Part shown: piece by piece, positions 25,842 through 52,294 of the stretch
Layout of the letters: each line of letters begins with the position of its first letter
Numbering within the stretch: the first letter of the stretch is position 1
DNA from: Aporrectodea caliginosa
Taxonomy: Eukaryota; Annelida; Clitellata; Crassiclitellata; Lumbricidae
Reading direction: 5' to 3'
Length of the DNA stretch: 64,000 nt
NCBI GenBank assembly: GCA_020284085.1
Contig: JACEVL010001004.1
Span: 1 to 64,000 of the forward strand
Made by a program: the position numbers and the translations under genes
The notes under the pieces: generated by a model
The model's database searches: none
What the model was told of the DNA's origin: nothing
Seen by the model: only the letters and a program-made list of their open reading frames with translations

Positions 25842-26132
25842 AAATAATTATAACAAAAAATAATAGTTTTGAGTTTTTGTTGACAGTATAAATTATTAGG
25901 CCTATATGAACTGTTATAATTATAATATATTATAACAGTATATCATATAGCAGTAATATAATGATAGGCCCTGTTATTGACTATTTTAATATAATATTAT
26001 GATACTATCATAATATTGTTGGGCACCTCCTTTATGTTCTTCTAGCACTACTTCAGGTGGTCCTAGTCCGTGCAGAGCAAGTAAAGGCAGTGCACAGCCC
26101 AATCGGCTGCAGAAACTAGGTAAGTACTATGA

Positions 26133-26636
26133 GTGAATCCTACCATTAAGGTTGCATCACTGGAAACTACGGTTGGTGCCCCCGAGACCACCCCCGAGAC
26201 ATTTTCTTCACCTTCACCCTTCAATTCTATCAGGGATGCGCCAGAGGGTAAAGTTGCTGAACTAAGAACTTCGGGCGGAAGTCAACCCGTTGTTCCAACG
26301 AATCAAGGTCCTTTTCATTCAAAAACTCGTCGTGAAGAAAAAGCATACAAAGTCAAATTATGTGAAAAAAGGTTTGAGCAGACTGAAGATTTGAATGTCT
26401 CTGTGAAAACTGTTGAGATTGAAACGGGAAGACTTGAAGTATTTGGAAGTCAGAAGTCATATGATTCTCATCATTTCCTTGTGAAACAATTTGGTTGTTT
26501 AATATGCAATGAAATGTTTGAAATAGAAGAGGAATTTCGGTTGCACTGTTTCCAGGCATGTTATTCTCCAGTGGATTCTCCAGTGGATGATGACTTTGCC
26601 AAACTGCTGAAATTTACCTGTAATTTTGCAGTTTAA
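26133..26636 (+). pseudogene. Inverted duplicate of a ZNF C-terminus fused to unrelated sequence
   Basis: From about 26310 the plus strand encodes the ZNF C-terminal region: [20 protein letters not shown], then the C2HC module [15 protein letters not shown] ... [11 protein letters not shown] with an SPVD duplication, DDDFAKLL and a frame-shifted end. The first ~58 codons (MNPTIKVASLETTVGAPETT...) are Pro/Thr-rich and have no match in the other ZNFs. The closest relative is the end of ZNF-C. It is the head of an inverted duplication continuing at 27602 after a piggyBac insertion. Confidence 0.75.
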
Positions 26637-27599
26637 CCCTAGGGCTACCAAGCTTTTTTTGTAACACGGACTACCAAGGGGGGTGGTTACCCCCCCCTGG
26701 ATTTCGTGTTTGGTTTTACATATCATAACTTGTAATATAGCAATGGATTCAGCATTCATTTCTGCACAGAATGGTATATTTAGTTGTACATTATGTGAAT
26801 GCACCTCGAAATTACATCACTTTTAACAACGGAACCCATTAATTAGCAATATTGTATATTATTGCGTACATTTTCTACTTTTTGGATAAACAAATATAAG
26901 ATTATGTGTGTTTTGAAACTAATCTATGTATAAAAGATACACAAAATCATCCCTACACATGTTTATATAGTATAAATGTACATCCATACATATATATCCA
27001 TACATATATATCGGTTTACGTTGTAATGCTGTATTCAGCCATTTTCACACAGATTACGCGTATTATTATTTATTTTGATCACTTCCGGTATTCAAAAGAC
27101 AAAGATGTAGGTATGCAAATGAAGCCCTACATTCCCTCTAAAGAATGGTATCTTTGTTTCTCTTCCAGGAAGACAAATGAATATGCTACAGACAAAAAAC
27201 TAAGGGGGGAGTCCTTCCATTCAGCCATTTTTCACGCATATTACGCGTATTATTATTTATTTTGAGCACTTCCGGTTGTCACAGGTCAACTCAGTGACCA
27301 TAGAAATGTAGCCCCACATTCCCTCTATAGAATGGTATAATTTGTGTCTCTTAATATTAAATGACGGATAAGATATAGTCGAAAATCTAGAGGGGGTGGT
27401 ATCCACCCCCCTCTGGTGCCTCGGGTATATTGGCTATAACTTTTGAACGGTGTGAGATATCATCTCACATTTTACCTCAAAACGTGTGTAAATGAACCCC
27501 CTACAGCTACCTAAAAGGTCAAATTTTTATTCCATACGGAAAAAGTTTGAAATGAAAAAAACCTAGGGGGTGGCAACCACCCCCTTGGTAGCCCGGGGG
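26637..27599. mobile_element. 963-bp non-autonomous piggyBac-like element
   Basis: It lies between TTAA sites (26633-26636 and 27600-27603). The left TIR begins CCCTAGGGCTACCAAG and the right, reversed, CCCCCGGGCTACCAAGG. TTAA targeting and CCC ends are piggyBac traits. The ZNF-C paralogue (about 38333) has the uninterrupted site with a single TTAA, proving the insertion. Internal 'tacgcgtattattatttatttt' stretches repeat next to 'cacttccgg'. No transposase is encoded. A second copy is at 60096-61012. Confidence 0.9.
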
Positions 27600-27601
27600 T
27601 T

Positions 27602-28580
27602 AAAATAATGTTTTCTAAGTAAGTGTATTCTGCCTAATGATGCATAGCAAAGTTTTATTCTGTTGGATGCATCTCAAATTTTCCACTTTTTTCTTGAACA
27701 TACATGCTTCTGTTATAACAAGTTGTTCTTTGCTTCCCTGGTGCATGAAAAACAGAGAGGCAAGGGTATGTGACAGGATTTTATGGTTGTGTAATATGCC
27801 ATGAAACGTTTATGCAACTAGCATTTTATTGTGCATGCTTTCCACTTTTGTTATTTCTGCATTGTTTTAAATCAAAAAGGAATTTTTGAGGCACCGTTTC
27901 CAGGCATGTTACTCTCCAGTGGATGATGACTTTGCTGAATTCTTTGAAGATTAACACTTGAGCTGTGTTACTTTTAAATTTAATATTCAGTTTACCATAT
28001 TTTTATAAGAAAATGTATTTTGTTTTCTGAGGCATAGCAAATTTGTTGGCTGTTCGATACATTTAAACTTTTCCAAGTTTTCCTAGAACATGCTTTGTTG
28101 GAAGACTGTTACCATAACGCAGAATGTAAAAAATAACTGGTTTTTCTTTAGTTTCCTGTGTCATTAAAAGCAGAGGGGCAAATTAACATTGAATGTCTTT
28201 ATCCTGCCATTTTATGTTAATAACCGCTATAAAAAATTCTCTGTAGTTACCTGTTGTGTTTATGTTACATGATCAATAAAATTTTGCTATTGTCATTATT
28301 TTTATAGTAATCCCTTAAATAACTATTAGAAATCCAGAAGTTTCTGTTGTGTTTTTCAGATGCAACCATTCTAATTCATACTTTGAGAGATGATAAGAAA
28401 ACTAATAGAGATTAACAGGACAATTTTCAAGTATTTTTTAATCAGACACCATATGTTACTTATTCTTATCTTTTTTAGTGTAGCCATGTGGTACTTGCAA
28501 TTGTACATTTATATAGCGCCACTTCAAGAGAGACTTTTAGAGGCACTACACACTAATAATAATATTTGTAGTCGACCAGG
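27602..28580. repeat. Inverted duplicate of ZNF-C 3' flank
   Basis: Base for base this is close to the reverse complement of 37360-38338, including an 'agcgccacttcaagagagac' stretch at about 28530. It carries a relic of the C2HC module at 27880-27954 ([18 protein letters not shown] then stop, plus strand), which the minus-strand copy has at 37985-38075. The two arms lie about 9 kb apart around ZNF-B. Confidence 0.9.
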
Positions 28581-28590
28581 GCCTCTACCA
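28520..28590. repeat. LINE 3'-end-like 'tatagcgcc' fragment
   Basis: The stretch 'tatatagcgccacttcaag' then 'gaggcactacacac' and an (AAT)n tail resembles L2-type 3' ends; similar words occur at 6800-6850, 36014-36050 and 62035. It is shared by the inverted duplicate. Confidence 0.45.
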
Positions 28591-28819
28591 AGCCCTTCCC
28601 TTGTGTCCCTCCTCCCTGTGATTTACAGTAATTTCCCACTTTTTTGGAGGGACTGAGCCGCAGTTAGGGGGGGGGGCTTAGCTATTCCCCCTGGCGCCGC
28701 CACTGAGTACTTAGCATTATTCTTTTTAGTTGATAGCTCTATAGACCAGCGGTTTTCAAATGGTGGTATGTGTACAACTAGTGGTCCGCCAGGTGTTGCT
28801 AAGTAGCACGTGCAAAAAT

Positions 28820-30529
28820 TCAAAATAATTTAAATTTTCTACTAGTTTTTTTTGAAAGCTTACTCAGGTCATTCTTCTCTGCAAATGCCTTCTCTCCAGT
28901 GTGGGTTCTCACATGGCGATTAAAATGATTTTTATTGGCAAAAGATTTGTGACATAGTTGACATTTGTATGGTTTCTCTCCAGTGTGTGATCTCTCATGA
29001 ATTTTCAAATAATTCTTTCGTGAAAATGTTTTCGGACATAGGTCACATTTGTATGGTTTCTCTTCAGTGTGGGTTGTCATATGTCGATTCAAATGACTAT
29101 TACGTGTAAAACATTTGTGGCATACGTGACATAAGTATGGTTTCTCTCCAGTATGGGTTCTCATGTGACAATTCAAATGACTACTACACGGAAACGATTT
29201 GTGACATAGGTGACATTTGTATGGTTTATCACCAGTGTGCGATCTCCGGTGAATTTTCAAATTATTATGTGTAAACGTTTTCTGGCATATGTCGCACTTG
29301 TATGGTTTCTCTCCAGTGTGGGATCTCATATGGACATTCAAATAACTACTGTTTGCAAAAGATTTGTGACATTGGTCGCAGTTGTATGGTTTCTCTCCAG
29401 TATGGGTTCTCATATGGACATTCAAATAACTATTTCGTGTAAAAGATTTTAGACATAGGTGACATATGTATGGTTTATCTCCAGCGTGGTTCCTCAAATG
29501 AATATTTAATTGGCCTTTATGTGGAAATGATTTCTGGCATAATTCACATTTGTATGGCTTATCTCCAGTGTGTGTTCTCATATGTCGAGTCAAATGACCA
29601 TTAGATGTAAAAGATTTGTGACATAGGTGACATATGTATGGTTTCTCCCCAGTGTGGGTCCTCAAATGTTTACTCAAGTCGCAAATATGGATATACGACT
29701 TTCTGCATAAGTCACATTTGTATTGTTTCTCTCCAGTGTGGGCCTTCAAATGTGCACGCAAGCTACTACTACCAGAGTATGATTTTTCACATATGTGACA
29801 TATGTACGGCCTCTCTCCAGAGTGGGTTCTCATATGAACTTTCAAACTACCACTTGAGTAAAATGATTTGTGGCATAGTTCACATCTGTATGGTCTTTCT
29901 CCACTATGGATACTAGAATGACTATGCAGTGTACTCTTTAGTGCAAAAGCCTTGTGACATGACTCACACTTAAACGGTTTCTCTGCTGTGTGGGTTTTCA
30001 TGTGGATTCTCAAAGAACTATTTGATGAAAACGATTTATTACACATTTGACACTTGTATCCTTTCTCTCCAGTGTGTGTTTTCACATGAGTATTCAAATC
30101 ATATTTCCGTGAAAATGCCTTGTTGCAGAATTCACATTTATGTGGTCTTTCTCCGCTATGAACCAATGAATGCTGACATAGTTTAGATTTTGAAACAAAT
30201 GGCTTGTGGCATAATTCACACTTATATGGCTTTTCTCCAGTGTGGGTTTTCATGTGTCCATTCAAATGATGACTGCGCCCATATGACTTATGACATAATT
30301 TACACTTATATGGCTTCTCTCCAGTGTGGATTCTCGAATGGTTTTTCAAAACACTACATGTTACAAATGATTTTTGACATAGTTGACATTTGTATGGTTT
30401 CTCTCCAGTGTGGGTTCTCATATGGACATTCAAGTGACTAATAGCAGTAAATGATTTGTGGCATAGGTGACATTTGCAAGGTTTATCTTTTTGGACGATT
30501 TTAGATTTCTTGCCCTGGTCACCCATCAT
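28820..30529 (-). CDS. ZNF-B: 19-finger C2H2 protein lacking the C-terminal module
   Basis: The start MMGDQGKKSK (ATG at 30529 or 30526) is in frame with 19 clean fingers from CHLCHKSFTAISHLNVH to [17 protein letters not shown]; one (CDICQKTFTHNNLKIH) is one residue short. The frame is also open upstream of the ATG for about 39 codons. After the last finger it reads AFAEKNDLSKLSKKTSRKF and stops at 28820: a deletion has removed the start of the next finger, and the degenerate fingers and C2HC module found in A, C, F and G are missing. It is probably a nuclear DNA-binding protein. Sequence just beyond the stop is transposon-derived. Confidence 0.85.
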   Translation of the reverse strand: MMGDQGKKSKIVQKDKPCKCHLCHKSFTAISHLNVHMRTHTGEKPYKCQLCQKSFVTCSVLKNHSRIHTGEKPYKCKLCHKSYGRSHHLNGHMKTHTGEKPYKCELCHKPFVSKSKLCQHSLVHSGERPHKCEFCNKAFSRKYDLNTHVKTHTGEKGYKCQMCNKSFSSNSSLRIHMKTHTAEKPFKCESCHKAFALKSTLHSHSSIHSGERPYRCELCHKSFYSSGSLKVHMRTHSGERPYICHICEKSYSGSSSLRAHLKAHTGEKQYKCDLCRKSYIHICDLSKHLRTHTGEKPYICHLCHKSFTSNGHLTRHMRTHTGDKPYKCELCQKSFPHKGQLNIHLRNHAGDKPYICHLCLKSFTRNSYLNVHMRTHTGEKPYNCDQCHKSFANSSYLNVHMRSHTGEKPYKCDICQKTFTHNNLKIHRRSHTGDKPYKCHLCHKSFPCSSHLNCHMRTHTGEKPYLCHVCHKCFTRNSHLNRHMTTHTEEKPYKCDLCPKTFSRKNYLKIHERSHTGEKPYKCQLCHKSFANKNHFNRHVRTHTGEKAFAEKNDLSKLSKKTSRKFKLF

Positions 30530-31513
30530 CACAAAAATCCTAGGGACAAAATTCGCACTTATATAGTGTCTACTGTCTACCGTGTGTTTCTTATCGCTTG
30601 GACAGTGAAACGAATGAATCGCATCTAGAAGACGTTTGTGAAGCAAATTGTAATTTCAGTGGTTTCTCTCCAGTGTCAGTTTTTCTGTGGCACCTTTGTT
30701 CATGACTTCTTGAAAAGTTTATTACACAGAATTAATACATGCATTGTTTACCACAGGTCTCTGCTTATTCCATTGTTTCTCTTTTCTTTCTTTTTCATTC
30801 CTCTGTTATTCCAAAGTGACACAAATCTTGGTTTTCATTTATGGCAAATGGGTTGGCTTTGCGTAAAATTACTTTGATGCCTTGAAAGTACGTTGTTGAT
30901 AATCCAATAGATTAGGCCTATGTCTTTTATGGTTTTCAGTCGGGTGATGTCCTTTTCTGGCAACATCTGCTGCACTGTTTGACTGAGTTTCTTACGCATT
31001 CGCTGAGTTTTCTATGATTTCTTTTGTCAAACCATCAAATATCTATTTCTGCAAATGAAAGTACAGTTGCTGTCAACAGAACATAAATTATATTTTACTA
31101 ACAGCAAATTTCAAATAATAAATCCTATAAATTAGGAAATCTAATTTTCTTGATCAGCCTAGATAGCGAAACCAGTTCCACATGGTCCACTGTATTCGTG
31201 CAAACTGTAAATATATTTGAGCCATGTGAAGATTTAAGATGACTGTTGATGTTGATAGACTGTAGAGCATAAAGCATTTTTAGAGTGATTCACTAATATT
31301 GTCAAATTAACAACATCATTGTGCTCGATGGTTAAAGGCCAAATGACAGCCATTCTTCTCCATGACTTGTCTGCTGCTTGTGATAATTGATACTGTGAAC
31401 CATTGCGTTCTTTCGCAATTCTTTCAAACACTGGCTTGGAGTTTCTGGCCCTGCACTAAATTGGTGTACTACTTTTCTTATCTCTGCTTATTCATTGATG
31501 AAAATAAAAATTT

Positions 31514-31933
31514 GGTAATCCTGGCAACGGCGGTCCCAAATTATGAAATGAAAGAAGTCTACAAAGTTATTTGATATTGTCACTTTAAAATGGAAGCTGG
31601 ATTGATGAAAAGAACTGTTTCCATAAATGGAATCTGGATTGATGAGAAAAACTGTTTCCCTAAATGGAAGTGGGATTGATGAAAACATTCCTGTGTTGAA
31701 ATAGAAGCTGGATTGATCGAAATAATTTTCCCGTAAATAGAAGCTGGATACCAAGCTGGTTGCATGGATGAAACTAAGTTTCCATTCAATAGAAGCTGGA
31801 TGAAAATAATGTTTTCAGTAAGTAGAAGCTGGATTCCTGAGAATCTATAGCACGTCTTAGCGAAACTACAAGAAAGCGGCCTCTGTTGATTTCTTTCATT
31901 TCATAATTTGGGACCGCCGTTGCCAGGATTACA
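31514..31933. mobile_element. Type-B core element, duplicated twin
   Basis: Same ends, TSD and core as 24001-24421 with only a few substitutions. It was present before the segmental duplication. Confidence 0.85.
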
Positions 31934-32196
31934 AATAATTTAGGTTAAACACAAGTTGGATTAATGAAAGGAATCTGGCTTAAATAGAAGCTGGATTAAT
32001 TAAACTTATCATAAATATCATTGAAATAATAAAATACGCTAAAATACACGTCTACCCCACTAACAATAAAAATAAACGTAAATGCACTTTAATCGATTTC
32101 ACCAGTACAGGCACACGGAACCAGAATTCGCAATTTACGCAAATATTTTAAAATTTTATAGGGATGAACACATATTAAATAAATAATAAACACATG

Positions 32197-32698
32197 GGTA
32201 AAGTCGTAGTTTACTTTGCTAAATTATTTGATATTGTCACTTTAAAATGGAAGCTGGATCGATGAAAGAAATTGTTTCCCAAAATGGAAGTGGGATTGAT
32301 GAAAACATTCCTGTGTTCAAAATTGAAGTGGGATTGATCGAAATAATTTCTACCGTAAATAGAAGCTGGATGGATGAAATTAAGTTTTCGATTCAATAGA
32401 CGCTGGATTGATGAAAATAATTGTTTCCGTAATTAGAAGCGGGATCCATGAGAATATATCTTTGCTTAAATAAAAGTTCCATTGATGAAACATATTTCTT
32501 TCGTCAAATAGAAGTTGGATTGATAAAAGTATTTTTTTCCAATTAAATGGAAGTTGGATTGATGAAAATATTTATCGATGATATGGAAGCTGGATTGATG
32601 ATAGTTAACATGCACATAGGTAGACTGCTTACTTACCAACGTAAAGTACGGCATTGAAGACATTAGAATAATTTAGCAACGTAAACTACGACTTTACC
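32197..32698. mobile_element. Type-C core element, duplicated twin
   Basis: Same as 24685-25185, with the TSD AACACATG at 32189-32196 and 32699-32706. One extra T in a T-run is the main difference. Confidence 0.9.
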
Positions 32699-33447
32699 AA
32701 CACATGAAAATTTTAAAGATAATATTAAAGCATACCAGCGTAGAAAGAGAATTAACAAAATCTAATAATTGGCCTTTGTCGATGTCGTGAAAATGGCTTT
32801 AACCAAAAACAAAATGGTGGAATAATATGGAATTGCTTGATAAACGCTTCTGGCCTCTACCGATTAAAATGCATTATTTTCAGCAAGCGATCTTCAACTA
32901 ACGATCTTAGAGTGTTACACTACGATAACACGACACACGGTGCATCTGAATTAAATGTACACCTCAACTCCCTTGAGATGTGTAGCGCCACTAATTGATT
33001 GGCGGTAAAACTCTATCATTTTTAGCGTATGTTATTCTATTTATTTATATTTGCATTAAAACATTTAGTGTATTTCATTATTAGGCCTATGGATAGTCAA
33101 CTTCGTTTTTGCGTATTTAATTGTTTCAATGATTTTAATGCAAACTGTCGTAAGTCCAACACATTCTTTGAAATGATTTATTCGTCAACCAATCTTGAAG
33201 TTTGCGTTTCTCATTTCCATAATCCCTCCAGCGAGTGCACAACTCCGCCGACAGTGTACGTTAACGCGTTGGAGGTGGTTACATTTAGAAAATGTTTGTT
33301 GAAATCAGTGTTTAATTCAGGCACCTGTGGAGGAATGTTCCCCATCAAGATGTAAACCTTCCATGATAGAAATATAGCAAAAAATAATAGTTTTGAGTTG
33401 TTGTTAACATTATAATATTATATGAACTGTTATAATATTATTATAAG

Positions 33448-33691
33448 TGGATGCATGGATGAATCTAAGCTCCCATTGCTGAATTGATGAAAATCATCTT
33501 TTCAGTAATTAAAGCTGGATTACTGAGAATATATAGGCTAGCACGTTTTAGCGAAACTATAAGAAAGCGGCCTCTGTTGATTAGCCGTAGGCCCTAATGG
33601 ATACAGATGGATAAGTCTTGTAGACGAAATGTCGGTAGACGAAGACTTAGTGTCGTAGACGAAAAGTCTGTAGACGAGTTGTCGCGGAACC
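33448..33691. mobile_element. Right part of a type-A core element
   Basis: Core units, then 'gaaagcggcctctgttgatt', then the 'tagacgaaatgtcgg' tandem arm ending in the complement of GGTTCCGCGACAACTCGTC at 33691. The left half is missing. Two TAGGCCTA-like insertions (33535-33539 and 33589-33595) are visible by comparison with 42470-42535. Confidence 0.7.
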
Positions 33692-34813: not shown

Positions 34814-35176
34814 CATAAAAGTCTGTAGACGAGTTGTCGCGGTACCGTTGAATGCTGCTGCCACCAAACCCAGGTGTAGATCCAATCCAGTCCATCCGAA
34901 GGATCAGTTCGCTGGGTTTTTAATCGTTTTTAATCTATTTTTTAAATACTGTTTAATGACACTGTGTCTTAACAAAGATGATTAGCTTCACCCACCTCCT
35001 TTCTCAAAGTTTGGGACTGACACTACCAGAGTACCAGGTATGGACAGTGGTTGTGTGTCGAAACTTTGATCTCTATATTCGAGTAGATAATACACGAATA
35101 GGCCTATAGAAAATTAATGTAAATAGAATTTTTTATTTTGTTGAAGGTCTGAATATGCGCGGAAGAATCGATTGCA

Positions 35177-35964
35177 ATGAAAAGCAACTTAAATGTGAAG
35201 TCTCTTACAAAGCATTTGCACAGATTTAGACTCCAAATTCACACACGAACTCACACTCAAGAGAAACTATACAAGTGCAAGTTTTGTCACAAAGGATTTG
35301 CACAGAAGAGATATTTGAATCGCCATGCAAGAACCCATTCTGGAGAAAAACCACATAAGTGCAATTTATGTCACAAGGCATTTACACAGAAAGTTTATCT
35401 TAAAATACATACAAGAATGCACACTGGAAAAAACATACATTTGCATTTTATATTTATGTTTACCTTTAATGTTTACCTGTGCCTGCATGTTCCTGTTTTA
35501 TGTGACAAAGCATTAGCATTTAGAAAGAGAGTTGCTCTTAACACATATACAAGAAATTATGTGATGTTCCAATTTCACAGAATGCAAGAACCAATGGTGC
35601 TGAAAGCAAATTCAGTGAAAATTTTGTGTTGACGAAGGCACCAAAATACCATTCAAGTACTTGCCACAAGAAATTCAGTACTGACTATGAGGACTGTGGT
35701 GATGTGAAAGTGAAACAGTTGTCAACTGCTTCAGAAACCATGCAACACCTCTCTAGGCAGAGAAAGAATCCCAGTGATGATGTTGGTCATTCGACAGTTA
35801 GACCATATGGATGTGGAATGTGTGATGGAATATTTGAAGTTGAAAAGGAATTCATGGAACATTGTTATCATCACAACTATGCTGCTCCAGAGAAAGATAC
35901 ATTTCTTGATATATTTGAAATTCAGCTGTGTAGTTACTTTCCAAGAACACAGAAAACAGAATAG
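35177..35964 (+). pseudogene. Broken plus-strand ZNF (E) with C2HC module
   Basis: Two good fingers remain ([21 protein letters not shown] region, [21 protein letters not shown] region). A finger before them ([12 protein letters not shown] at about 35190) is in another frame, and after them the frame collapses into finger relics ([15 protein letters not shown]). A stop at 35632 is followed, in another frame, by a linker and the C2HC module: RPYGCGMCDGIFEVEKEF then HCYHHNYA, where the last module Cys is replaced. At least two frame changes and a lost zinc ligand make it a pseudogene. Confidence 0.75.
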
Positions 35965-36009
35965 GCCTAGTTCATGAGTCTGTAATATTGTATTGTATTG
36001 TATTATTTT

Positions 36010-37359: not shown

Positions 37360-38333
37360 ATACAAATATTATTATTAGTGTGTAGTGCCTCTAAAAGTCT
37401 CTCTTGAAGTGGCGCTATATAAATGTACAATTGCAAGTACCACATGGCTACACTAAAAAAGATAAGAATAAGTAACATATGGTGTCTGATTAAAAAATAC
37501 TTGAAAATTGTCCTGTTAATCTCTATTAGTTTTCTTATCATCTCTCAAAGTATGAATTAGAATGGTTGCATCTGAAAAACACAACATAAACTTCTGGATT
37601 TCTAATGGTTATTTACGGGATTAGACCTACTATAAAAATAATGAAAATAGCAAAAATTTTTTGATCATGTAACATAAACACAACAGGTAACTGCAGAGAA
37701 TTTTTTATAGCGGTTATTACCATAAAATGACAGGATAAAGACATTCAATGTTAATTTGCCCCTCTGTTTTTAATGACACAGGAAACTAAAGAAAAACCAG
37801 TTATATTTTTTACATTCTGCGTTATGCTAACAGTCTTCAAACAAAGCATGTTCAGGGAAAACTTGGAAAAGTTGAAATGTATCCAACAGGCAACAAATTT
37901 GCTATGCCTCACAAAACAAAATACATTTTCTTATAAAAATATGGTAAACTGAATATTAAATTTAAAAGTTACACAACTGAAGTGTTAATCTTCAAAGAAT
38001 TCAGCAAAGTCATCATCCACTGGAGAATAACATGCCTGGAAACGGTGCCACAAAAATTCCTTTTCAATTTAAAACAATGCAGAATAACAAAAGTGAAAAG
38101 AATGCACAATAAAATGCTATTTGCATAAACGTTTCACTGAATATTACACAACCATAAAATCCCGTGACATTCCTTTGCCTCTCTGTTTTTCATGCACCAG
38201 GGAAGCAAAGAACAACTTGTTATAAAAGAAGCATGTATGTTCAAGAAAAAAGTGGAAAAATTGAGATGCATCCAACAGAAGAAAGCTTTGCTATGCATCA
38301 TATTAAAGGCAGAATACACTTACTTAGAAAACA
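37360..38333. repeat. ZNF-C 3' flank, source arm of the inverted duplication
   Basis: Reverse complement of 27602-28580. It contains a minus-strand C2HC-module relic at 37985-38075 ending DFAEFFED and stop. Confidence 0.9.
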
Positions 38334-40279
38334 TTATTTTAAACTGCAAAATTGCAGGTGATAATCTTCCAGCAGTTTGGTAAAGTCATCATCCACTGGA
38401 GAATAACATGCCTGGAAACAGTGCATCCGAAATTCCTCTTCTATTTCAAACATTTCATTGCATATTACGCAGCCAAATGGTTTCACAAGGAAAGGATGAG
38501 AATCAACTACAGATGACTCCTGACTTCCAAATACTTCAAGTTTTCCCTTTTCACTCCCATCAGTTTGCACAGCGATATTCAGATCTTCGGTCTGTTCAAA
38601 CCTTTTTTCACATAATTTGACTGTGCATGATTTTTCTGCAATATTGGTTGTTAAATGTCTACGCAAGTGTCTCTTCTCTGCAAATGCCTTGTGACAGTTT
38701 TCACACTTGTATGGCTTCACTCCAGTGTGTGTTCTCATATGGCGATTCAAATGACTATTACGTGCAAAAGATCTTTGACACAGGCGACATGTGTATGGTT
38801 TCTCTCCAGTGTGGGTTCTCATATGGCAATTCAAGTCACTATTACGTGCAAAAGATTTGTGACATAGTTGACATTTGTATAGTTTATCTCCAGTGTGTGT
38901 TCTCATATGGCGATTCAAATGACTATTACGTGCAAAAGATTTGTGACATAGGTCACATATGTATGGTTTCTCTCGGACAGTGTGGGTTCTCATATGGCAA
39001 TTCAAATCACTATTATGGCCAAAAGATTTGTGACATATGTGACATATGTATGGTTTCTCTCCAGTGTGGACTCTCATATGGCGATTCAAATGACTATAAC
39101 ATGTAAAACATTTGTGACATAGGCGACATATGAATGGTTTCTCTCCTGTGTGTGTTTTCTCATGAATTTTCAAATAATCCTTCCATTTAAAAGTTTTCTG
39201 ACATAGGTGACATTTGTATGGTCTCTCTCCAGTGTGTGTTCTTATATGGCGATTCAATTGACTATTTTGTGCAAAAAATTTGTGACATAGGTGACATATG
39301 TATGGTTTTTCTCCAGTGTGTATTCTCATATGGCGAGTCAACTGACCACTAGATATAACAGATTTCTGACATAGGTTACATATGTATGGTTTCTCTCCAG
39401 TGTGGGTCTTCAAATGTTTACTCAAGTCGCAAATATAGATATACGATTTTCCACATAAGTCACATTTGTATTGCTTCTCTCCAGTGTGGGCCTTCAAATG
39501 TGCACTCAAGCTACTAATACCAGTGTATGATTTTTCACATATGTTACATATGTACGGCCTCTCTCTCCAGTGTGGGTTCTCCTGTGAACTTTCAAACTAC
39601 CACTTGAGTAAAATGATTTGTGGCATAGCTCACATCTGTATGGTCTTTCTCCACTATGAACCATTGAGTGTCTATGCAGTTGACACTTTAGTGCAAAAGC
39701 CTTGTGACAATATTCACACTTAAACGGGTTCTCTGCTGTGTGGATTTTCATGTGGCTTCTCAAAGAACTACTCAATGAAAATGATTTATTACACGTTTGA
39801 CACTTATATCCTTTCTCTCCAGTGTGTGTTTTCATATGAATATTCAAATAACTTTTCCGTGAAAATGCCTTGTTGCAGAATTCACATTTATGTATTCTTT
39901 CTATGCTATGAACCACTGAATGCTTACACAGATCACCTTTTGAAGCAAATGCCTTGTGGCATAATTCACACTTATATGGCTTCTCTCCAGTGTGGGTTTT
40001 CATGTGTCCATTCAAATGATCACTACGTCTATATGACTTGAGACATAGTTGACATTTGTACGGCTTCTCTCGATTGTGAGTTCTCGAGTGGTTTTTTAAA
40101 ACACCACTCGTTACAAATGACTTCTTACATAGTTGACATTTGTATGGTTTTTCTCCAGTGTGGCTTCTCATATGGACCTTCAAATGACTAATATAAGTAA
40201 ATGATTTGTGGCATATGTGACATTTGCATAGCTTACAATTAGTGTTGAGGGTTTTAGAATTCTTGCTCTTGTCACCCAT
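38334..40279 (-). pseudogene. ZNF-C: ~19-finger C2H2 gene with one frameshift and full C-terminal module
   Basis: It starts MGDKSKNSK at 40279. Eight fingers follow, then the frame is lost at 39559-39567, where the linker codons hold CTCTCTCT instead of the CTCTCT of ZNF-B (two extra bases). Past that point another frame continues with about ten fingers ([17 protein letters not shown] onward), one linker carrying an extra residue (TVREKPY), a last finger with His to Asn, then [15 protein letters not shown] and the C2HC module [15 protein letters not shown] ... HCFQAC and [14 protein letters not shown]. Apart from the 2-bp slippage it is intact, so the frameshift may be a sequencing error in a dinucleotide run. 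Confidence 0.8.
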
Positions 40280-41009: not shown

Positions 41010-41792
41010 GGTGCGCCGACAAAACGGCGCAGGACAAAACGGCGCAGACATAATGGCGCAGACAAAACGGCACGGCAACAAAACGGGGCAGTACAAAACG
41101 GCGCAAAACTGTACTAAAGAACAATAGTTTATAGCAGTTTAATAGTAGAAGCAGCAAAAATATATAATAAAATATATATGTATGTACTAGAAATAACTGA
41201 ATAACTGAGAAACTTCATCAAGTCTTATAGTTCATAGGGTAAAGTCGTAGTTTACGTTGCTAAATTATTTGATATTGCCACTTTAACATGGAAGCTGGAT
41301 TGATGAAAAAAATTGTTTTTCTAAATGGAAGTGGGATTGATGAAAACATTCCTGTGATCAAAATTGAAGTTGTATTGATCGAAATAATTTTGTCCGTAAA
41401 TAGAAGCTGGATGGATGAAATTAATTTTTCGATTCAATAGAAGCTGGATTGATGAAAATAACTGTTTCCGTAATTAGAAGCTGGATTAATGAGAATATAT
41501 CTTTGCTTATATAAAAGTTCCATTGATGAAAAATATTTCCTTTGTCAAATAGAAGTTGGATTGATAAAAGTAATTTTTTCCAATTAAATGGAAGTTGGAT
41601 TGATGAAAATATTTATCAATGAAATGGAAGCTGGATTGATGATAATAAGCAAACAATCACTCTACGGTTATCATAATCTTTGTACTGCGCCGTATTGTCT
41701 GCGCCGTTTTGTCGGGGTACTTTGAATTCCGCCGTTCTGTCTGCGCCGTTTTGTCTTCGTCGTTTTGTCCTGCGCCATTTTGTTACGGCGCC
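41010..41792. mobile_element. Type-E core element, 783 bp, with tandem-repeat TIRs
   Basis: The left arm begins GGTGCGCCGACAAAACGGCG and is made of repeated 'acaaaacggcgcag'; the right arm is its complement. The 9-bp TSD CATCTAGAC (41001-41009 and 41793-41801) is perfect. The interior from 41238 is a type-C element that has lost its right end at about 41645, so the interior was probably acquired by insertion. Confidence 0.85.
41238..41645. mobile_element. Type-C core element without right TIR, inside type E
   Basis: It starts GGTAAAGTCGTAGTTTACG and carries nine or ten 'ggaagctggattgatgaa' units, stopping after 'gctggattgatgataat' without the 'cttaccaacgtcaag' end. Confidence 0.75.
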
Positions 41793-43129: not shown

Positions 43130-44300
43130 ATTTAAATATTTAAATCATTTTCATGATAACTGTAATGAATCACGCTTCTACTTAAGCAAGATTCTTTTCA
43201 ACAATCCCACTACTAGTATTTAACCTAAATTATTTTCATCAATTCCTATCCTGTTTAACAAGAATTCTTTTCGTAAATCCAACTTATATCCTACCAACGC
43301 TGAAACTCATGCAATGGCGAGTTATTTATGATGTTAAACTGCACGCTGTTTTCATCAATCGAGCTTCTATTTTAGCAAATAACTAGTTTGATGAATCCAA
43401 CATCCATTTCGGCAAACAAATATTTTTATCAATGCAGCTTCGTTTTACGCAGACACATCAGAAAAATTATAAAATACGCTAAAATACTTGGCCGGTATTC
43501 TTTCCGAATCTGGGGCGGCCATGTTGTTTATGCAGACCTGTCATATTGGTGACTGAGCCGATGGGATCCTTTACCACATCTTGTATTTTTTTATGTAAGT
43601 ATCATTTTCACAATCCAACTTCCATTTCAACGAAAAATTCTTTTCACCAATTCAACTTCCATAATTATGCAAAGAATTATTATAATCAATTCAACTTCCA
43701 GTTATTAATAGAATTATTTTCATCAATACAACTTCTATTTACACAAAGAAATATTTTTATCAAACCAACTTGCATTTAGGCAGCGAGATAAGAGAAATGT
43801 TAAAAGTGCATTTTAGCGTATTTAACTCATGATGTTTACAGCCGAGTATTTTAGCGTATTTTATTATTTCTCTTACGTGATCTCGCATAAATGGAAGCTG
43901 GATCGATATAAAATAATTGTTTGTCTAAATGGAAATTGGATTGATGAAACTAGTTATTTGCTAAAAGAGAAGCTGGACTGATGAAAAAATCGTGCAGTTT
44001 AGTGTCGCATATGAGTCGCTATTGCATGACGAGTCTGCGTTAATCGAATAAAAGTTGGATTGACGAAAAGAAGTCTTGCTAAATAGAAGTTGAATTGATG
44101 AAATAATTTTACTCTAAGTAGAAGTGGGATTGATGAAAAGAATATTGCTTCTATAGAAGATGGATTCATTACAGTTATCATGAAAATCATTGAAATAATT
44201 AAATACGCTAAAATATGTACAAGCCTACCTAGAGTCCTCCACTATCAATGAAATACGCTAAAATGCACTTTTACCAGAGAAATAATGAAAAATAGGCTAA
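43130..44300. repeat. Overlapping core arrays with 'aaatacgctaaaat' termini
   Basis: Two or three truncated elements in both orientations, separated by 'ttttagcgtattt' motifs (43470, 43800, 43855, 44205, 44265). The end at 44283 reads, reversed, GGTAAAAGTGCATTTTAGCG, which fits the GG-start rule. Boundaries are not resolved. Confidence 0.55.
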
Positions 44301-45593: not shown

Positions 45594-46117
45594 AACTTTC
45601 ACTACTATCTATAAGCATTGTGAAGCCACGCCCAAATACTACAGGAATCCGTACTTTATTACGCCCGCACAAAATCTTAACAAACATAAAATCAAACGCA
45701 TAGACTGCGAAAATGTTCGTAAAGATCATTAAGAATGCCGTTAGATTTTGTGAAATAGGCTACACACCCGAAAAACGAGAAAATAGCTCACCAAAAACCA
45801 AAATTACAAACTCTCGGATACTGTTCTTTTGTGAAAGTCGTCAAAATGGCGTTAACTAAAGACAATAATTATAAGTTGATGTTGGAAATTGTATTTTCTG
45901 CCATCTTGCGATTGAATATGCTTTGACCAAATAATTATTCACCATGAAAACGTTATTAGCGTTAACTTTGCACATGGACACAGCTATTTTAACTTGCAAC
46001 CGTTACCAATACGAGTCATACGACAACTGGCATAGTGTATAATTATGGTCCACAGTTATCGCTTTGAACAGCAGAGGCTAAACTATAAAAAGTCGCATTT
46101 AAGATTACCTGGAGAAA

Positions 46118-46330: not shown

Positions 46331-47299
46331 ATTACCTGGAGAAAATACTTCACCCCATTCAGCTGCAGGTATCTGACATAAAATTTACACTATGTTCAGT
46401 GTAGGCCTACAGTGGTAACTCTACTGCGTTCAACATAAAGTAACGCTTTGCTGAATGCTTTAGTTGGACAAAGTTACCAGTGACTAACCAGACATAATAA
46501 TATTATGCATAGCAGCTTCGTCTTAGGAAAACACATTATGATAACGCCAATACCAAGAATGGCCCAGGTATGACGTCAGTCACGTGACCATGCATCAAAG
46601 TAAGTAAGGAAACAATATGAAATCAAACAAAAATCATCTCCGAGCATATACATCAAACTTGCCAAAGCAAGTGGCATAGCTCCGTATCTGAAAACACTGC
46701 AGCAAAAATACTGACAGTGTGGTGAGAAGAATTAACCTCACCTGTCAAAGTCGATCTCATCACAATCAAAAAATCACGCACGACCAGGAGGCTTAATTGA
46801 ATGAATAATAATAGTCTGTTACAAGAGTGGGAATCCAAAACACCCTGAATTTCTGTCGGCGGGTTCTGATAGTGCGAATGCACAGGGTATCAGCTGTTTG
46901 ATAATGGAGGAAGCTCCGCTGAATGATATTATATTATTATTAAATGACTTAACTTTCATCAAGCGTTGAAGAAATCCCGAGAGTACGCTAGATCACGTTT
47001 CAGTATTGAATTAGTATTAGGCCTATATCTAAAATTAATCTATAGAGAGCACCAGTATATGTTTATGTCATCCAAATTCTATTGCCAATACTCTTATTTA
47101 AATCTGACGCCATTTTGAAGAACACGACAACTCGATTTCCGTTTGTATTGTTTTGATTTATTTTTGCTGTTTTTAGCATGACATGGCATATTGTATTAAC
47201 TTATTGCCTTCTTGTCTTCGTCGGAAGCTGAGAATATGAACAAAGAGCAATTTTAGATACCCTCCGCGTAGCATACATTTCATACTGCCCGACGCCCGT

Positions 47300-48922
47300 A
47301 AACTTCCTTTCAAACTACCGACCGGTCTCCAACCTGTCATTTATCTCTAAACTAACCGAACGCATAGTCCTGTATCGGATAAATGACTACCTGACTTCAA
47401 ACTCACTCCTTAACTCACACCAGTCTGGTTTTACCAAGCGGCACTCAACCGAAACCCTAATTCTCACTTCCCTGTAGGCCTACAATAAACTGTCTTGTTT
47501 CTGCCATATCAACAAGTCTCCTGTCTGTGCCTCCTTGATATTTCTGCAGCCTTTCGACACCATTGACCACAACATATTACTCCAAAGATGTCTACCTGGT
47601 TCGGTTTTACCGACACTGTTCTCCCCTGGATTCAGACCTATCTCTCTTCCCTTCCCTCTTTTTCTCCGTTAAAACACCAGAAAACTCATCGCAATCATGC
47701 CCTCTCACCTGTGGTGTTCCGCAAGGTTCTATCCTTTGACCCCTATTGTTCATCCTTTACACTTATTCCACTCAGCTAACTCGTCATAGCATCCTCGGTT
47801 GACCATCACCTATACGCTGACGACACGCAATTATTCATCTAATTCTCTCCAAGCAGCTTCTCTGACTCCATAGATCATCTTCTCCGTGTGGTAAAACAAA
47901 TCTCCTCCTGGATGACCTCTAACATGTTGTGCCTTAACCCCTCTAAAACTGAATTCGTTCTTATAGACCTCCGTGAGCAACTCAAGAAAATCCCAGATCC
48001 CTCTATTTCCCTCAACCTTGACTCTGTATCCACTCACACATTCATTGCAAATTCTCCTGTCCGCAACCTAGGTGTGACTTTTGACCAGAATCTTAGCTTT
48101 TCCGATCACATTACCCATCTTTCCAGCGCTCTTCCTTCATGCACATCCGTGACCTTCGTAGAATCCGCCCTATACTCGACTTCAAAACCGCTTCTACAAT
48201 CGCCACATCAATATAGTTCACGCCAAATTAGATTACTGCAATGCTGTCTTCCTCAACATAGATACCGCTGAAATAAACCGCCTCCAGGCTATTCAGAATG
48301 CTCTCGCCCGTGCTGTCACCAAAACCCCCAAACACCACCACATCACCCCTGTCCTGAAATCACTCCAATGGCTCAAAATTCCTGAACAAATAGAATATAA
48401 AGTCCTATCCCTCACCTACAACACACTTCAAACCTCCCAGGAGTCCCAGCCCTCGTATCTCCGTCAGCTGTTGACGGTCCAACCCCTTCGTTCAACCCGT
48501 TCATCTTCCACCCTCACAATGCTCCGCCCTTCCGTCACCTCATCGCTTAAATTTCCAATCGCTTCATAGCCATAGCTGTACCGCCTCTTTGGAACAAACT
48601 TCCACCTGTGCTACGACAAATATCCGATCCATCCACGAACTCACCAAAACCTCACCTCTTGCTATATCTCCACAGGTCTTCCATTCAAAACTGAAAACAC
48701 TGCTTTTCACAAATCCTATCCCGATTCCTTCTCCTCCCTCACCTACCTCGCCATTTTCAACTCTAAACATCATCCACCTTAGCCGTCTGACTGTCTGCCT
48801 CCCTGGATTTTGACCCTCTGCCTATCGATTCTGTTCTGATTAAGCGCCTGTGAATAAGCTGGTTCCCGCGACTTCTCTTTTGTGGGCGCTCTAGAAATAT
48901 CGAGTTTACGATTACGATTACG
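47300..48922 (+). mobile_element. 1.6-kb L2-like LINE, 5'-truncated, degraded
   Basis: It opens inside the RT domain: NFLSNYRPVSNLSFISKLTE, later GFTKRHSTETLILTSL, FDTIDHNILLQ and ADDTQLFI, then MTSNMLCLNPSKTEFVLI, and in other frames ITPVLKSLQWLKIPEQIEYK and QVFHSKLKTLLF near the end. Frameshifts are many. The 3' end is (ATTACG)n at 48905-48922. It landed in a type-G MITE, whose halves flank it (47263-47299 and 48923-48952). Confidence 0.9.
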
Positions 48923-49082
48923 AACTCACGCACCCCGATAATAAATGTTCGCCACTTTTTAAACTTTCGTAAACGACAGTGTAACTATAAATGAGATACA
49001 AATTGATTGTTAGTTATCAATCAAGCAAATTAGGCATATTTTGATAATCTATCGATTCTGCGTTCTAAATTATTCGCCATTG

Positions 49083-49794
49083 GGTTATCCCGTAGTTTAG
49101 GTTGATAAATTATTTGAATATCTTCAATACCGAACTTCATGTTGGTAAGCAAGCAATCTACCTATGTCCATGATAACCATCGTCAGTCCCGCTTCCATTT
49201 CATGGAGAATTTTTTTAACCAATCCAGCTTCCATTTCATGAAAAATATTAGCCAACTTCTATTTAACAAAAAAAATATTTTTCATCAATGGAACTTTTAT
49301 TTAAGCAATGAACTATTCTCATTGGTCCAGGTTCTACTTACGGAAACAATTATTTTCATCATTCCAGCTTCTATTGCATCAAAAACTTAGTTTCATCAAT
49401 CCAGCTTCTATTTACGGTAAAAATTATATCCATCAATCCAACTTCTATTTAAAGATACAAATGGTTTCATCAGTCCCACTTCCAGTTAGGGAAACAATTT
49501 TTTTTCCTCAATCCAGCTTCCATTTCAATTTGACGATATAAAATAATTGGCAAGCATTTAGTATCGGGGTGCGTGTATTTTCTCCCGTCATTTTAGGCGT
49601 CGTGAGAGTCTGTTAGGGTAAGGTTACGCGTCGTGAGGGTCGGTTAGGGTCAGGGTTAGGGTTAGTGTCGTCTTTAAAAAACATCGTACCTTCCGCGCAG
49701 CATGCCAAAAGATGCTGTCTGACTCCCGTAAACTTACGCACCCCGATACTAAATGCTTGCCAAATAATTTACCAACCTAAACTACGGGTTTACC
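49083..49794. mobile_element. Type-D core element with nested 213-bp MITE
   Basis: GGTTATCCCGTAGTTTAGG at 49083 to the complement of GGTAAACCCGTAGTTTAGG at 49794. The core has the usual order of nine units. Interrupted at 49549-49761. Confidence 0.85.
49549..49761. mobile_element. Type-G 213-bp MITE with telomere-like interior
   Basis: Perfect 26-bp TIRs beginning GGCAAGCATTTAGTATCGGG; perfect 8-bp TSD AAATAATT (49541-49548 and 49762-49769). The interior contains GGGTTAGGGTTAG-type stretches and no core array. Confidence 0.95.
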
Positions 49795-49869
49795 CGCCAT
49801 TGTATGGATTATAGCGTTTGTCGAGTACAAGTCGAATGACTCGGATTGACGAACCCCGATACCATATGG

Positions 49870-50700
49870 ATGCCAAGAATTCTTGCTGAATAGAAGTGCG
49901 ATTGATTAAATATAATTGTTGCTTAAATAGCAGCTGGATTGATGACACGAATTCTTGCCTAAATAGAAGCTGGATTGATGAAAAGGATTCTTGCCAAAGT
50001 AGAAATTGGATTGATGAAAAATAATAATGTTACAATGGGCGAATAATTGAGAACGCTAAAATTATGGGTTAGGCCTACCCAAATTTTAATTGGTCCTTTA
50101 GACAGATAGAATTATAAGAAACTTGAATTACTGAAATGTATTCAAGTGTACTCAACTGTTTGGTTTTCCGCAGAATTAGACTGGCTATTTGCAGATTAAT
50201 TAAAAGAAAATCTGCGGAAATAGTTAAAGAATGAAGCTTACTTCATATTACTGCTGCAATTCATAATTTTTCAATGAGTTTTGTGAGATACCTAAAATGT
50301 GTGGTAATCTATCGTTTCAGGGTCCTTATTATTTATGCATTATAACGTTTGTGCAAGATTCTTTTTGTTTAGGCATGCTATAAATGACAATTTAATAATA
50401 ATAATGGAGTAAACCAGGGTTTTAGCGTCGGAAATTATGTTAGGTGTAATAGAAGTTGGTCAATGTAAACAATTGTTGCTAAAATAGAAGTTGGATTGAT
50501 GAAAATAATCCTTGCTTAAATGGAAGTTAGAATGACATTTTTTATTGTGTTAATAGAAGTTGGATTGATAAAACAATTGTATTGTCTACCTAGAAGCTGG
50601 ATTGATTAAAAAAGTGTAAGCAGCTCGACGGTGGAAAAATGCATAGTGTAAGTAGAAGTTGGACTGATGCTCAAGCTGTACAATAGGCGACAAATTGGAG
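49870..50700. repeat. Core-unit fragments and AT-rich spacer
   Basis: Units of 'gaagttggattgatgaaa' at 49885-50020 and 50445-50670 without intact TIRs; 50040-50440 shows nothing recognisable. Confidence 0.55.
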
Positions 50701-51334
50701 ATGCTGAAGCGATAGATTACAAAATGTGTTTTATTATGTGTATACATACATACATCGATACATATATACACGTATACATACATAAGACACTTAGATACAT
50801 ACATACTTGTCTGTAATAAAGACTTTCTACCTAGATTATTTTTGGGAATATTCAAAAGGATAAGGTCATTGCCCAGCTTGTGTTTTTAGAAATTAAACAT
50901 AAGCAATAAAGCACAGGCTTTTTCAATGCTGAGGAACAGAATATGGACAGTTCTCAAATTTATTTGATTCTGCAGTAACAAATTCCGGACAATATTAGAC
51001 GTGTACAAACTTGATGCTTTCTTTTGCAGAAATAGTACCTGATGTATGAATCAGTTTAATGTATCATATGCAGACTTTGAAGATCACATTGAAAGGAAAT
51101 TCATTCAATCTGCGCAGGAAGCATTGCTTGACAATGAACGTAAAGCATAATCCCAAAAGCTTTTACATTACAGAGGATGAGGAAATGTTTTGAACTTTTT
51201 AAGTAAATGTGATATAGAATACTTCACTTAGAATTCAGATGAACACAAGCCCCAACACTTGTGCACTATCACATTTAAGATTTGTGTCATAGCAAGTCTT
51301 TGGATTTATTCACCACAAAGTCAACCTGGCTAAA

Positions 51335-52294
51335 ATGAATGAAGAGCCAAGTTTATGTCAGTCTGAACTAAAAGAGGAATACAATAGAGACAAGACAAGA
51401 GTCCATGCGACAATAAAGACAGATGAAAGACCATTCAAATGCGAATTCTGTGGGAAAACGTTTACAAAGAGTTATAGCCTAAAATGCCACACACGAATCC
51501 ACACTGGAGAAAAACCACACAAATGCAAGATATGTGACGGAACATTTAGAAATTCTTCTGATCTACATAAGCATGCACGAAAGCATACAGGAGAAAAGCC
51601 GTACGAATGCAAAAATTGCGGGAAAACATTTACACGGTCTGGAACCTTAAATGAACACATGATGACTCATACTGGGCAAAAACGACACAAGTGCAAGTTA
51701 TGTGACAGAAGTTTTCCACATATTCGTTCATTGAAAGAACATGTTAAAAATCACAGTGGAGAGAAACCGTACAAATGTGAGCTATGTGGGAAAATGTTTG
51801 CCAAGAGAAATCAATTAAACTCTCATGCGAGAACCCACATTGGAGATAAACCATTCAAGTGTCAGATATGCAACAAATCGTTTCCATGGAGTAACCAACT
51901 GAAAGTCCACGAGAGAAAGCACTCGGGAGAGAAACCCTATAGGCCTACATGCGAATTATGCTACAAGGCTTTTGCAAACAAGAGCAGCTTAATTAGGCAT
52001 TCAAGGACACATTCAGGAGAAAAGCCACACAGAATAGATTTTTGCAACAAAGTATTTGGAAGGTCTGATAATCTCTTAAGTCATGCAAGAATCCAGGCAA
52101 GAGAAAAGCAAGGTCTGCATATACTGGGAAATGAAAGGTCATCTTTTGTTCATGTTGAACCTTACCAAGCGAAACCATACGGATGTGGGATTTGTGATGA
52201 AGTGTTTCAAATTGAAAAGGAGTTTATGGTGCACTGCTACTGTCTTTGTTATTGTCCTGTGGAACCAGACTTTGTACTGCTGTTTGAAGATTAG
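51335..52294 (+). CDS. ZNF-F: intact 7-finger C2H2 protein with C-terminal C2HC module
   Basis: The single open exon of 319 codons starts ATG (MNEEPSLCQSELKEEYN, an acidic leader) and has seven canonical fingers from CEFCGKTFTKSYSLKCH to CELCYKAFANKSSLIRH, an eighth that lost its Cys pair (RIDFCNKVFGRSDNLLSH), then a linker and the module KPYGCGICDEVFQIEKEF ... HCYCLCYCPVEPDF and LLFED. The linker before finger 7 reads KPYRPTC instead of KPYTC because of a 6-bp AGGCCT insertion (51941-51946). Probably a nuclear DNA-binding protein. This is the only complete, unbroken ZNF here with start, fingers and module. AATAAA at 52651 may be its poly(A) signal. Confidence 0.9.
   Translation: MNEEPSLCQSELKEEYNRDKTRVHATIKTDERPFKCEFCGKTFTKSYSLKCHTRIHTGEKPHKCKICDGTFRNSSDLHKHARKHTGEKPYECKNCGKTFTRSGTLNEHMMTHTGQKRHKCKLCDRSFPHIRSLKEHVKNHSGEKPYKCELCGKMFAKRNQLNSHARTHIGDKPFKCQICNKSFPWSNQLKVHERKHSGEKPYRPTCELCYKAFANKSSLIRHSRTHSGEKPHRIDFCNKVFGRSDNLLSHARIQAREKQGLHILGNERSSFVHVEPYQAKPYGCGICDEVFQIEKEFMVHCYCLCYCPVEPDFVLLFED

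Follow-up and report, generated by a model that had tools for sequence, protein, structure and literature searches.

The window analyzed here, the first 64,000 nucleotides (64 kb) of contig JACEVL010001004.1 of the lumbricid annelid Aporrectodea caliginosa, carries 23 copies of the octamer TAGGCCTA, in which GGCC is placed between two TA dinucleotides, against 0.40 and 0.38 copies expected from first- and second-order Markov models. The copies are scattered through the window, as the first-pass annotation had reported with correct coordinates throughout, and their flanks display no kinship by eye. Among the window 8-mers with at least eight copies the octamer ranks second by the ratio of observed to expected; the other top words, apart from those that overlap it, resemble by eye pieces of a zinc-finger exon or of a 37-bp array. 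The window belongs to an assembly of 1,097,852,775 bases in 4,544 contigs, and all genome-wide expectations were derived from a second-order Markov model trained on 17 blind-chosen regions (10,000 of their 170,000 bases are N), with the reversed words counted as a control for composition. A genome-wide count, proposed in the first-pass annotation as a check, returned 292,633 octamers against 9,390 expected and 7,583 for the reversed word, and the blind regions contain 29 octamers in 160 kb against 1.4 expected. Base composition is thereby ruled out as the origin of the excess by both the Markov and the reversed-word counts.

Three further origins were rejected. A larger repeat bearing the octamer is ruled out since the flanks have no significant common sequence beyond position -1, a miniature inverted-repeat transposable element (MITE) with TAGGCCTA at both ends was discarded as no common inner sequence was seen, and junctions of telomere repeats (TTAGG/CCTAA) do not fit the octamer flanks.

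Filled and empty sites

The window sites were compared with paralogues in the window, with other loci (designated L) and with the copies of one dispersed repeat. An aligned copy was available for five of the 23 octamers (25897, 30913, 33082, 51940, and 60255), and the other 18 have none in the sequence examined. The first-pass annotation described the octamers as precise 6-bp insertions at TA, and of the three test sites re-examined one is clean and two are mixed or weak. The octamer at 25897 is exactly 6 bp longer than its counterpart in the block near 33414, which is 84% identical and also shows a separate AT difference close by. An exact 6-bp difference is also found between the octamer at 30913 and the 40390 block (70% identity), but the more similar 23169 block (92% identity) lacks 13 bp, which leaves this site mixed. 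The zinc-finger linker at 51940 is indeed 6 bp longer than the aligned fingers, but these are only about 65–70% identical and the placement of the gap varies. The proposed length of 6 bp holds for the octamer and is too narrow for the process as a whole, since 5- and 7-bp forms occur too. The two variants that had been pointed out hold up as such forms: TAGGCCCTA at 33588 has 7 bp more than its counterparts in the 42382 block and L137, which both read bare TA (two further blocks differ otherwise), and TAGGCTA at 33534 is 5 bp longer than three of five aligned blocks (the other two differ otherwise). Clean empty counterparts were additionally found for 60255 (6 bp, in L160 and L161), 60703 (5 bp), and 37622 (TAGACCTA, 6 bp).

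A TAGCCTA at 60703 is located in a dispersed repeat for which at least 39 further near-full copies with 93–95% identity were identified among the best 40 of 6,077 first-look candidates scored. The flanks of this site with 0–20 bases between them match the genome 2,278 times (1,107 + 1,171). Among the 100 matches listed, 97 carry TA, two CA and one TGTA, and none is filled, so the TAGCCTA of the window is most simply explained as a derived insertion. The dispersed element at 60150–61017 is also present at 26637–27599 of the window and at L130:2810–4713 and L144:6924–7886; it has TTAA-type flanks and ends like CCCTCGGGCTACCAAG, and is provisionally labelled piggyBac-like from its TTAA.

Across the aligned pairs the insertion is located at a TA and has TA on both sides, with the exceptions of 30913 in one block and of L136:503, which faces TG instead of TA in its aligned copy. 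Filled and empty sites differ in a duplicated TA only, and the 3-bp TWA duplication of PIF/Harbinger elements was not found. The words arise by exact insertion and not by substitution, the latter being the route expected of a highly iterated palindrome like HIP1 of cyanobacteria; one related word, TAGGGCTA at 9225, did arise through substitution and counts against. Overall, the observation of short insertions at TA is confirmed as real, genome-wide and larger than first stated, and the exact filled and empty pairs together with the genome counts support the very small insertion process, a TA duplication around GGCC, that the first-pass annotation had suggested.

The word series, its flanks and its age

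The inserted words form a series between two TAs that consists of GGC or GCC (5 bp inserted), GGCC (6 bp) and GGCCC or GGGCC (7 bp). Genome-wide, TAGGCTA and TAGCCTA together occur 336,624 times against 85,258 expected (GGC 168,115 and GCC 168,509, each against 42,629; reversed controls 41,883 and 41,414), and TAGGGCCTA and TAGGCCCTA together 49,566 times against 3,412 (GGGCC 24,739 and GGCCC 24,827, each against 1,706; reversed controls 1,462 and 1,354). The excess of the three classes amounts to about 581,000 copies, one per 1.9 kb. Words next to the series behave differently. The GGGCCC word TAGGGCCCTA is barely or not enriched, with 529 copies against 310 expected (1.7-fold) and 1,150 for the reversed control (0.46-fold), and TAGGGCTA and TAGCCCTA reach 21,946 against 15,492, which is 1.4 times the expectation and 2.0 times the reversed control (GGGC 11,119 and GCCC 10,827, each against 7,746; reversed controls 5,462 and 5,622).

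Further words were counted in a non-random sample of 306 kb (0.03% of the genome) that takes in the window, L121–L123 and L128–L131, picked at or near matches, and L149–L152 beside them. TAGCTA is at chance in this sample (52 against 55.1). Among words of three to five bases between two TAs, and without a further TA, the best beyond the series is CATG (TACATGTA, 31 against 7.8) with a z score of 8.3, compared with 13.6, 57.6, and 23.1 for the series. At L131:6422, TACATGTA is further present as a 6-bp insertion that is dimorphic. Its flank preference is unlike that of the series and it is partly microsatellite; it was kept separate and is perhaps a second class of footprint.

The base that adjoins the TA, read outward, is enriched for G and depleted of C in all three length classes. 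In the GGCC class (89 sites) G was found 70 times against 33.0 expected and C 12 times against 31.3 (P = 2.5e-13), in the GGC/GCC class (85 sites) G 59 times against 31.5 and C 15 times against 29.9 (P = 6.5e-8), and in the class with five nucleotides (23 sites) G 20 times against 8.5 and C five times against 8.1 (P = 2e-4); half-sites were pooled, so these P values are indicative. Positions -2 to -6 display no significant preference in any of the three classes. This common flank preference suggests that the three lengths are products of one process.

The age of the insertions was approached through L130 and L131, two stretches of one contig (C2:40001–50000 and C2:155001–165000) with inverted, near-identical blocks that are about 1.1% diverged by substitution and may represent a duplication or a folded haplotype. 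Over 2,929 aligned bases, the four best blocks differ by 33 substitutions and by 17 insertion–deletion differences (indels), four of which belong to the series (two TAGGCCTA and two TAGGCTA/TAGCCTA), and a further six series sites are common to both copies (four TAGGCCTA and two TAGGCTA). Since four out of 10 sites differ between copies that are about 1.1% diverged, the activity is recent. A fifth dimorphic series site (L131:8789) is located in a block of 87% identity. The four 10-kb stretches L149–L152, aligned to extend the duplicate, gave no acceptable alignment. L131 also carries a 467-bp element (5708–6176) that is absent from L130; it has ends GGGGCCGTCCATAAAGTACGTCAC, begins with GGGGCC, and is compatible with a TTA duplication provided that an insertion of the form TA-AGCT-TA preceded it. 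Neighbor words one substitution away from the octamer were found 85 times in the 306 kb (70.9 expected), beside 89 distinct exact copies, which suggests, as a rough figure, about 2% change per site since insertion. One neighbor, TAAGCCTA, is inflated in the window by a 62-bp tandem array (17741–18175) that contains it.

An unselected survey of paralogues among the sampled loci yielded 114 distinct gaps of 3–12 bp, reduced to 88 after those with the same local sequence were merged and tandem-duplication types were dropped; it includes the window sites and L130/L131 and is therefore not independent of the individual cases. Indels of the TA...TA type make up 22 out of 39 indels of 5–7 bp and five out of 49 of 3–4 or 8–12 bp. 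By length, they are 0/11 (3 bp), 2/20 (4 bp), 6/14 (5 bp), 13/20 (6 bp), 3/5 (7 bp), 1/5 (8 bp), 0/3 (9 bp), 2/4 (10 bp), 0/5 (11 bp), and 0/1 (12 bp). Of the 22, 11 match the G/C series exactly, two (TAGACCTA and TACGCCTA) deviate from it by a single change, and the remaining nine include TACAGTA and TACATGTA.

All window sites are given in table 1. The heptamers TAGGCTA (seven seen against about two expected) and TAGCCTA (seven against 2.2–2.5) include some that are due to chance.

Table 1. Series words and related words in the window, with the aligned copies or counts on which each entry is based.
Feature	Position	Aligned copy or basis
TAGGCCTA	6236..6243	Exact word; no aligned copy
TAGGCCTA	8049..8056	Exact word; no aligned copy
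TAGGCCTA	10180..10187	Exact word; no aligned copy
TAGGCCTA	12061..12068	Exact word; no aligned copy
TAGGCCTA	13663..13670	Exact word; no aligned copy
TAGGCCTA	16488..16495	Exact word; no aligned copy
TAGGCCTA	17212..17219	Exact word; no aligned copy
TAGGCCTA	18208..18215	Exact word; no aligned copy
TAGGCCTA	19161..19168	Exact word; no aligned copy
TAGGCCTA	19606..19613	Exact word; no aligned copy
TAGGCCTA, 6-bp insertion at TA	25897..25904	TA in 84% paralogous block near 33414
TAGGCCTA, 6-bp insertion at TA	30913..30920	TA in 40390 block; 13 bp missing in 23169 block
TAGGCCTA, predates a duplication (counts against)	33082..33089	TGGGCCTA at matching place in 25319 block
TAGGCCTA	35099..35106	Exact word; no aligned copy
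TAGGCCTA	35962..35969	Exact word; no aligned copy
TAGGCCTA	46402..46409	Exact word; no aligned copy
TAGGCCTA	47018..47025	Exact word; no aligned copy
TAGGCCTA in long interspersed nuclear element (LINE) fragment	47475..47482	TAG of octamer is a stop in one frame as is
TAGGCCTA	50070..50077	Exact word; no aligned copy
TAGGCCTA in zinc-finger linker, in frame (KPYRPTC)	51940..51947	6-bp gap in window fingers, about 65–70% identity, placement varies
TAGGCCTA, 6-bp insertion at TA in dispersed repeat	60255..60262	Bare TA in L160 and L161 (95% identical)
TAGGCCTA	61414..61421	Exact word; no aligned copy
TAGGCCTA	61475..61482	Exact word; no aligned copy
TAGCCTA, 5-bp insertion at TA, same repeat as 60255	60703..60709	Bare TA in 5/5 aligned copies
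TAGGCCCTA, 7-bp insertion at TA	33588..33596	Bare TA in 42382 block and L137; two other blocks differ otherwise
TAGGCTA, 5-bp insertion at TA	33534..33540	5 bp missing in 3/5 blocks: 42382, 24245, 31757 (last two near-identical)
TAGACCTA, 6-bp insertion, probably decayed TAGGCCTA	37622..37629	6-bp gap in 95% paralogue
TAGGCCCTA	19..27	CAGGCCCTA in 197–474 paralogue; no empty site
TAGGCCCTA in microsatellite	15971..15979	TAGATATTA in adjacent repeat copy, equal length
TAGGCCCTA	61188..61196	Word count
TAGGGCCTA	7102..7110	Word count
TAGGGCCTA	8727..8735	Word count
TAGGGCCTA	19369..19377	Word count
TAGCCTA in TATG microsatellite, weak 5-bp candidate	16033..16039	5 bp missing in 76% match near 50806, none in another
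TAGGCTA, candidate	5389..5395	Word count
TAGGCTA, candidate	8949..8955	Word count
TAGGCTA, candidate	17566..17572	Word count
TAGGCTA, candidate	19227..19233	Word count
TAGGCTA, candidate, more like substitution	44293..44299	TACGTTA in short 43-bp match
TAGGCTA, candidate	45756..45762	Word count
TAGCCTA, candidate	3384..3390	Word count
TAGCCTA, candidate	8891..8897	Word count
TAGCCTA, candidate	16287..16293	Word count
TAGCCTA in zinc-finger exon, probably ordinary codons	51475..51481	No gap at word in 7/10 aligned fingers
TAGCCTA, candidate	61839..61845	Word count

Probable excision footprints and alternative explanations

The octamers, together with the 5- and 7-bp forms, are probably the excision scars of a TA-inserting DNA transposon of the Tc1/mariner type with the ends TA-GGC...GCC-TA, a reading to which a probability of about 0.6 is assigned. 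Such an element would insert at TA, with GTAC-like sites favored, and duplicate the TA. At its exit the transposase would cut three bases inside each end and leave a 3-nt 3' overhang GGC on both flanks. The top strand would then read GGC from the left flank and GCC from the right, and end joining would pair the overhangs in one of three registers. A three-base overlap, with one G:G mismatch repaired, would give TA-GGC-TA or TA-GCC-TA; a two-base overlap, with a perfect GC:GC pairing and no mismatch, TA-GGCC-TA; and a one-base overlap, with a C:C mismatch repaired, TA-GGCCC-TA or TA-GGGCC-TA. The three-, two-, and one-base classes stand at about 251,000 : 283,000 : 46,000. Without overlap the product would be GGCGCC; the corresponding word TAGGCGCCTA was not found in the 306 kb, and genome-wide it occurs 732 times against 306 expected and 180 for its control (2.4-fold and 4.1-fold). 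This register model, which was framed once the sample had been counted but before the variant words were counted genome-wide, names the enriched words and leaves out GGGCCC, GC, and GGGC, so that two element ends would suffice to explain a short fixed set. The first-pass annotation had left the choice between an excision footprint and a micro-element; the joint pattern of the forms favors a footprint over a self-contained micro-element. What the data show directly are the exact insertions at TA, the single flank preference of the three lengths, the restricted word set and the recent activity; the cuts by a transposase, the 3-nt overhang and the GGC-ended parent are inferred. A close alternative to the 3-nt overhang is a 4-nt sticky end, GGCC, at which a base is occasionally lost or gained.

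Published excision products are similar. Sleeping Beauty and mariner are described as cutting three nucleotides inside the element, which leaves 3-nt 3' overhangs on the flanks that are joined by end joining, and the Sleeping Beauty footprints equal these overhangs (PMC7827188). After the excision of mariner and Stowaway elements the duplicated TA remains together with bases of the element end, whereas PIF/Harbinger elements mostly leave no footprint (as outlined in PMC4561436). The likeness to Tc1/mariner elements such as Sleeping Beauty and Mos1 thus comprises the TA target, its duplication and the few element-end bases left between two TAs, which gives the insertions the appearance of Tc1/mariner footprints. 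Transposases of this superfamily (PF13358) are plentiful in the genome (150 of 2,223 first-look candidates were scored), and the best 12 matches have open frames of 355 amino acids and no link to GGC ends. The series differs in its number above chance and in its three registers with the two-base overlap the commonest. Stowaway MITEs and plant mariners similarly leave a target site duplication and a short end sequence, but these MITEs are very numerous in the account of PMC4561436, whereas no GGC-ended MITE was seen in the 306 kb.

Several points weigh against excision scars of a GGC-ended Tc1/mariner element. The 306 kb yielded no element that has TA-GGC...GCC-TA inverted repeats, an absence that leaves several thousand parent copies possible genome-wide. 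The search of this sample returned 225 TA-flanked inverted pairs, judged by eye to lie mostly in the repeat arrays of the window, and the element-like pairs start with GGGTGG, GGGGTG, CACTGTG, and CAGTAC. A 20-mer starting with GGC recurs in L128 and L129 with partly similar flanks and may therefore belong to the interior of a longer repeat. Three Tc1/mariner families, each compared in two copies, appear to begin with CAGT (the left end only, read where the alignment stops), CGAGGG, and GGGTGT (the latter two with visible inverted repeats), and none with GGC. The published footprints measure 2–4 bp (0–3 for ZB) according to PMC7913693, yet the commonest register here has four bases between the TAs. 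The scars would need very many excisions, and the small excesses of TAGGGCTA and TAGCCCTA and of TAGGGCCCTA are not predicted by the registers and may or may not be explained by decay through point mutation. Apart from these points, the Tc1-like family of L153 and L154 (C23 and C200) has 12 equally scoring transposase copies with 355-aa open frames, and two of its copies share 99.7% identity along 2,476 bases and are thus very young.

The absence of a parent from the 306 kb and the sole target preference seen, at -1/+1, also suit an insertion process that involves no large element, in which a TA-cutting nuclease or transposase acts and the ends are rejoined after gaining a fixed GGC-type end, the three to five bases being the inserted unit. 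This is considered unlikely; the words are those that two GGC ends give in fixed registers, and such a set requires that each side carry a particular end sequence, and we know of no enzyme that adds such an end. Alternatively, a staggered cut at TA might be filled in and extended by a terminal-transferase-like enzyme that adds one to three untemplated Gs to each 3' end, as N-additions in V(D)J joining are G-rich. The products TAGnCmTA, with n and m independent, would cover the enriched words, including the modest excess of TAGGGCTA and TAGCCCTA. However, G tailing predicts about 2,190 copies of TAGGGCCCTA, a number that by itself strongly disfavors it given the count above, about 35,970 of TAGGGCTA and TAGCCCTA and, in the 306 kb, 70.6 of TAGCTA (P = 0.012), all of which exceed what was seen and make this explanation very improbable. 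Abundant scars with no parent in the 306 kb would likewise be produced if germline-limited GGC-ended elements were cut from every somatic nucleus and the assembly displayed the somatic scars. The internal eliminated sequences of ciliates, which have TA flanks, offer a precedent, but precise elimination on such a scale is to our knowledge not known in animals, nothing in this single assembly indicates somatic excision, and programmed elimination is regarded as improbable. A broader idea, likewise improbable, is that the parents are missing from the sequence examined since GGC-ended elements are excised massively, possibly in a programmed manner in soma or early development. The scar would then be what chiefly remains visible of a TA excision system that acts genome-wide, and a leading source of short indels in the species.

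The single palindromic octamer and its very high density recall HIP1 of cyanobacteria (PMC4390886), which the same source links to DNA methyltransferases; a palindrome of this kind would be multiplied by substitution and kept by selection or through an enzyme. This is hardly credible for the words described here, since their origin by exact insertions of 5–7 bp contradicts it, paralogues differ in their copies, and the 5- and 7-bp forms have no palindrome; the setting also differs, as the insertion series belongs to a genome of 1.1 Gb that contains zinc-finger arrays. An adapter or base-caller error that adds a few bases at TA would produce a short and uniform word, but such an artefact is scarcely conceivable given that sites are common to copies (four octamers and two heptamers in L130/L131, and 33082 with one substitution), that some look decayed (TAGACCTA, 16 seen against 6.4 expected) and that the flanks carry a base preference. 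The ends of PIF/Harbinger elements (Tourist, mPing) often begin with GGCC, and the GGGGCC start and compatible TTA duplication of the 467-bp element in L131 are comparable. These elements differ in their 3-bp duplication and their generally precise, footprint-free excision (PMC4561436), whereas the scars in A. caliginosa keep TA only. Word searches of open-access PMC papers found no printed description of the insertion series. The octamer itself may be frequent in marine animals too.

Neighboring features and significance

The window contains C2H2 zinc-finger genes at 21054–22946 (-), 38334–39509 (-), 51335–52294, 54238–57117 (-), and 26133–26636, which by eye have a common C-terminal domain GC.IC.E.F..E.EF..HC; a search with one copy of this domain as the query returned six candidates, none at E <= 0.001. 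A 37-bp unit near AAATAGAAGCTGGATTGATGAAAATAATT forms many tandem arrays in the window in both orientations (e.g., 24733–25088, 32245–32601, and 41283–41648). Elsewhere, a short internal GGGTTA array, the vertebrate-type telomere unit, is located at L148:1847–1930. One scan of viral contigs was empty, and in another, with at least 120 stretches, the eight viewed closely were phage genes or short arrays. The viral contig L089 carries seven TAGGCCTA within 233 bases (4561–4793), some as near-palindromic pairs, and similar close pairs are found in L067.

If the insertions are excision scars, the genome of A. caliginosa would be a natural archive of transposon exits and of the way in which overhangs are rejoined, from which the ratio of overlaps could be read directly, and the sites would be directly usable as polymorphic markers and as a clock of transposon activity. 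Insertions of 6 bp leave the reading frame intact and can lengthen a protein by additional residues, for example, in a zinc-finger linker.

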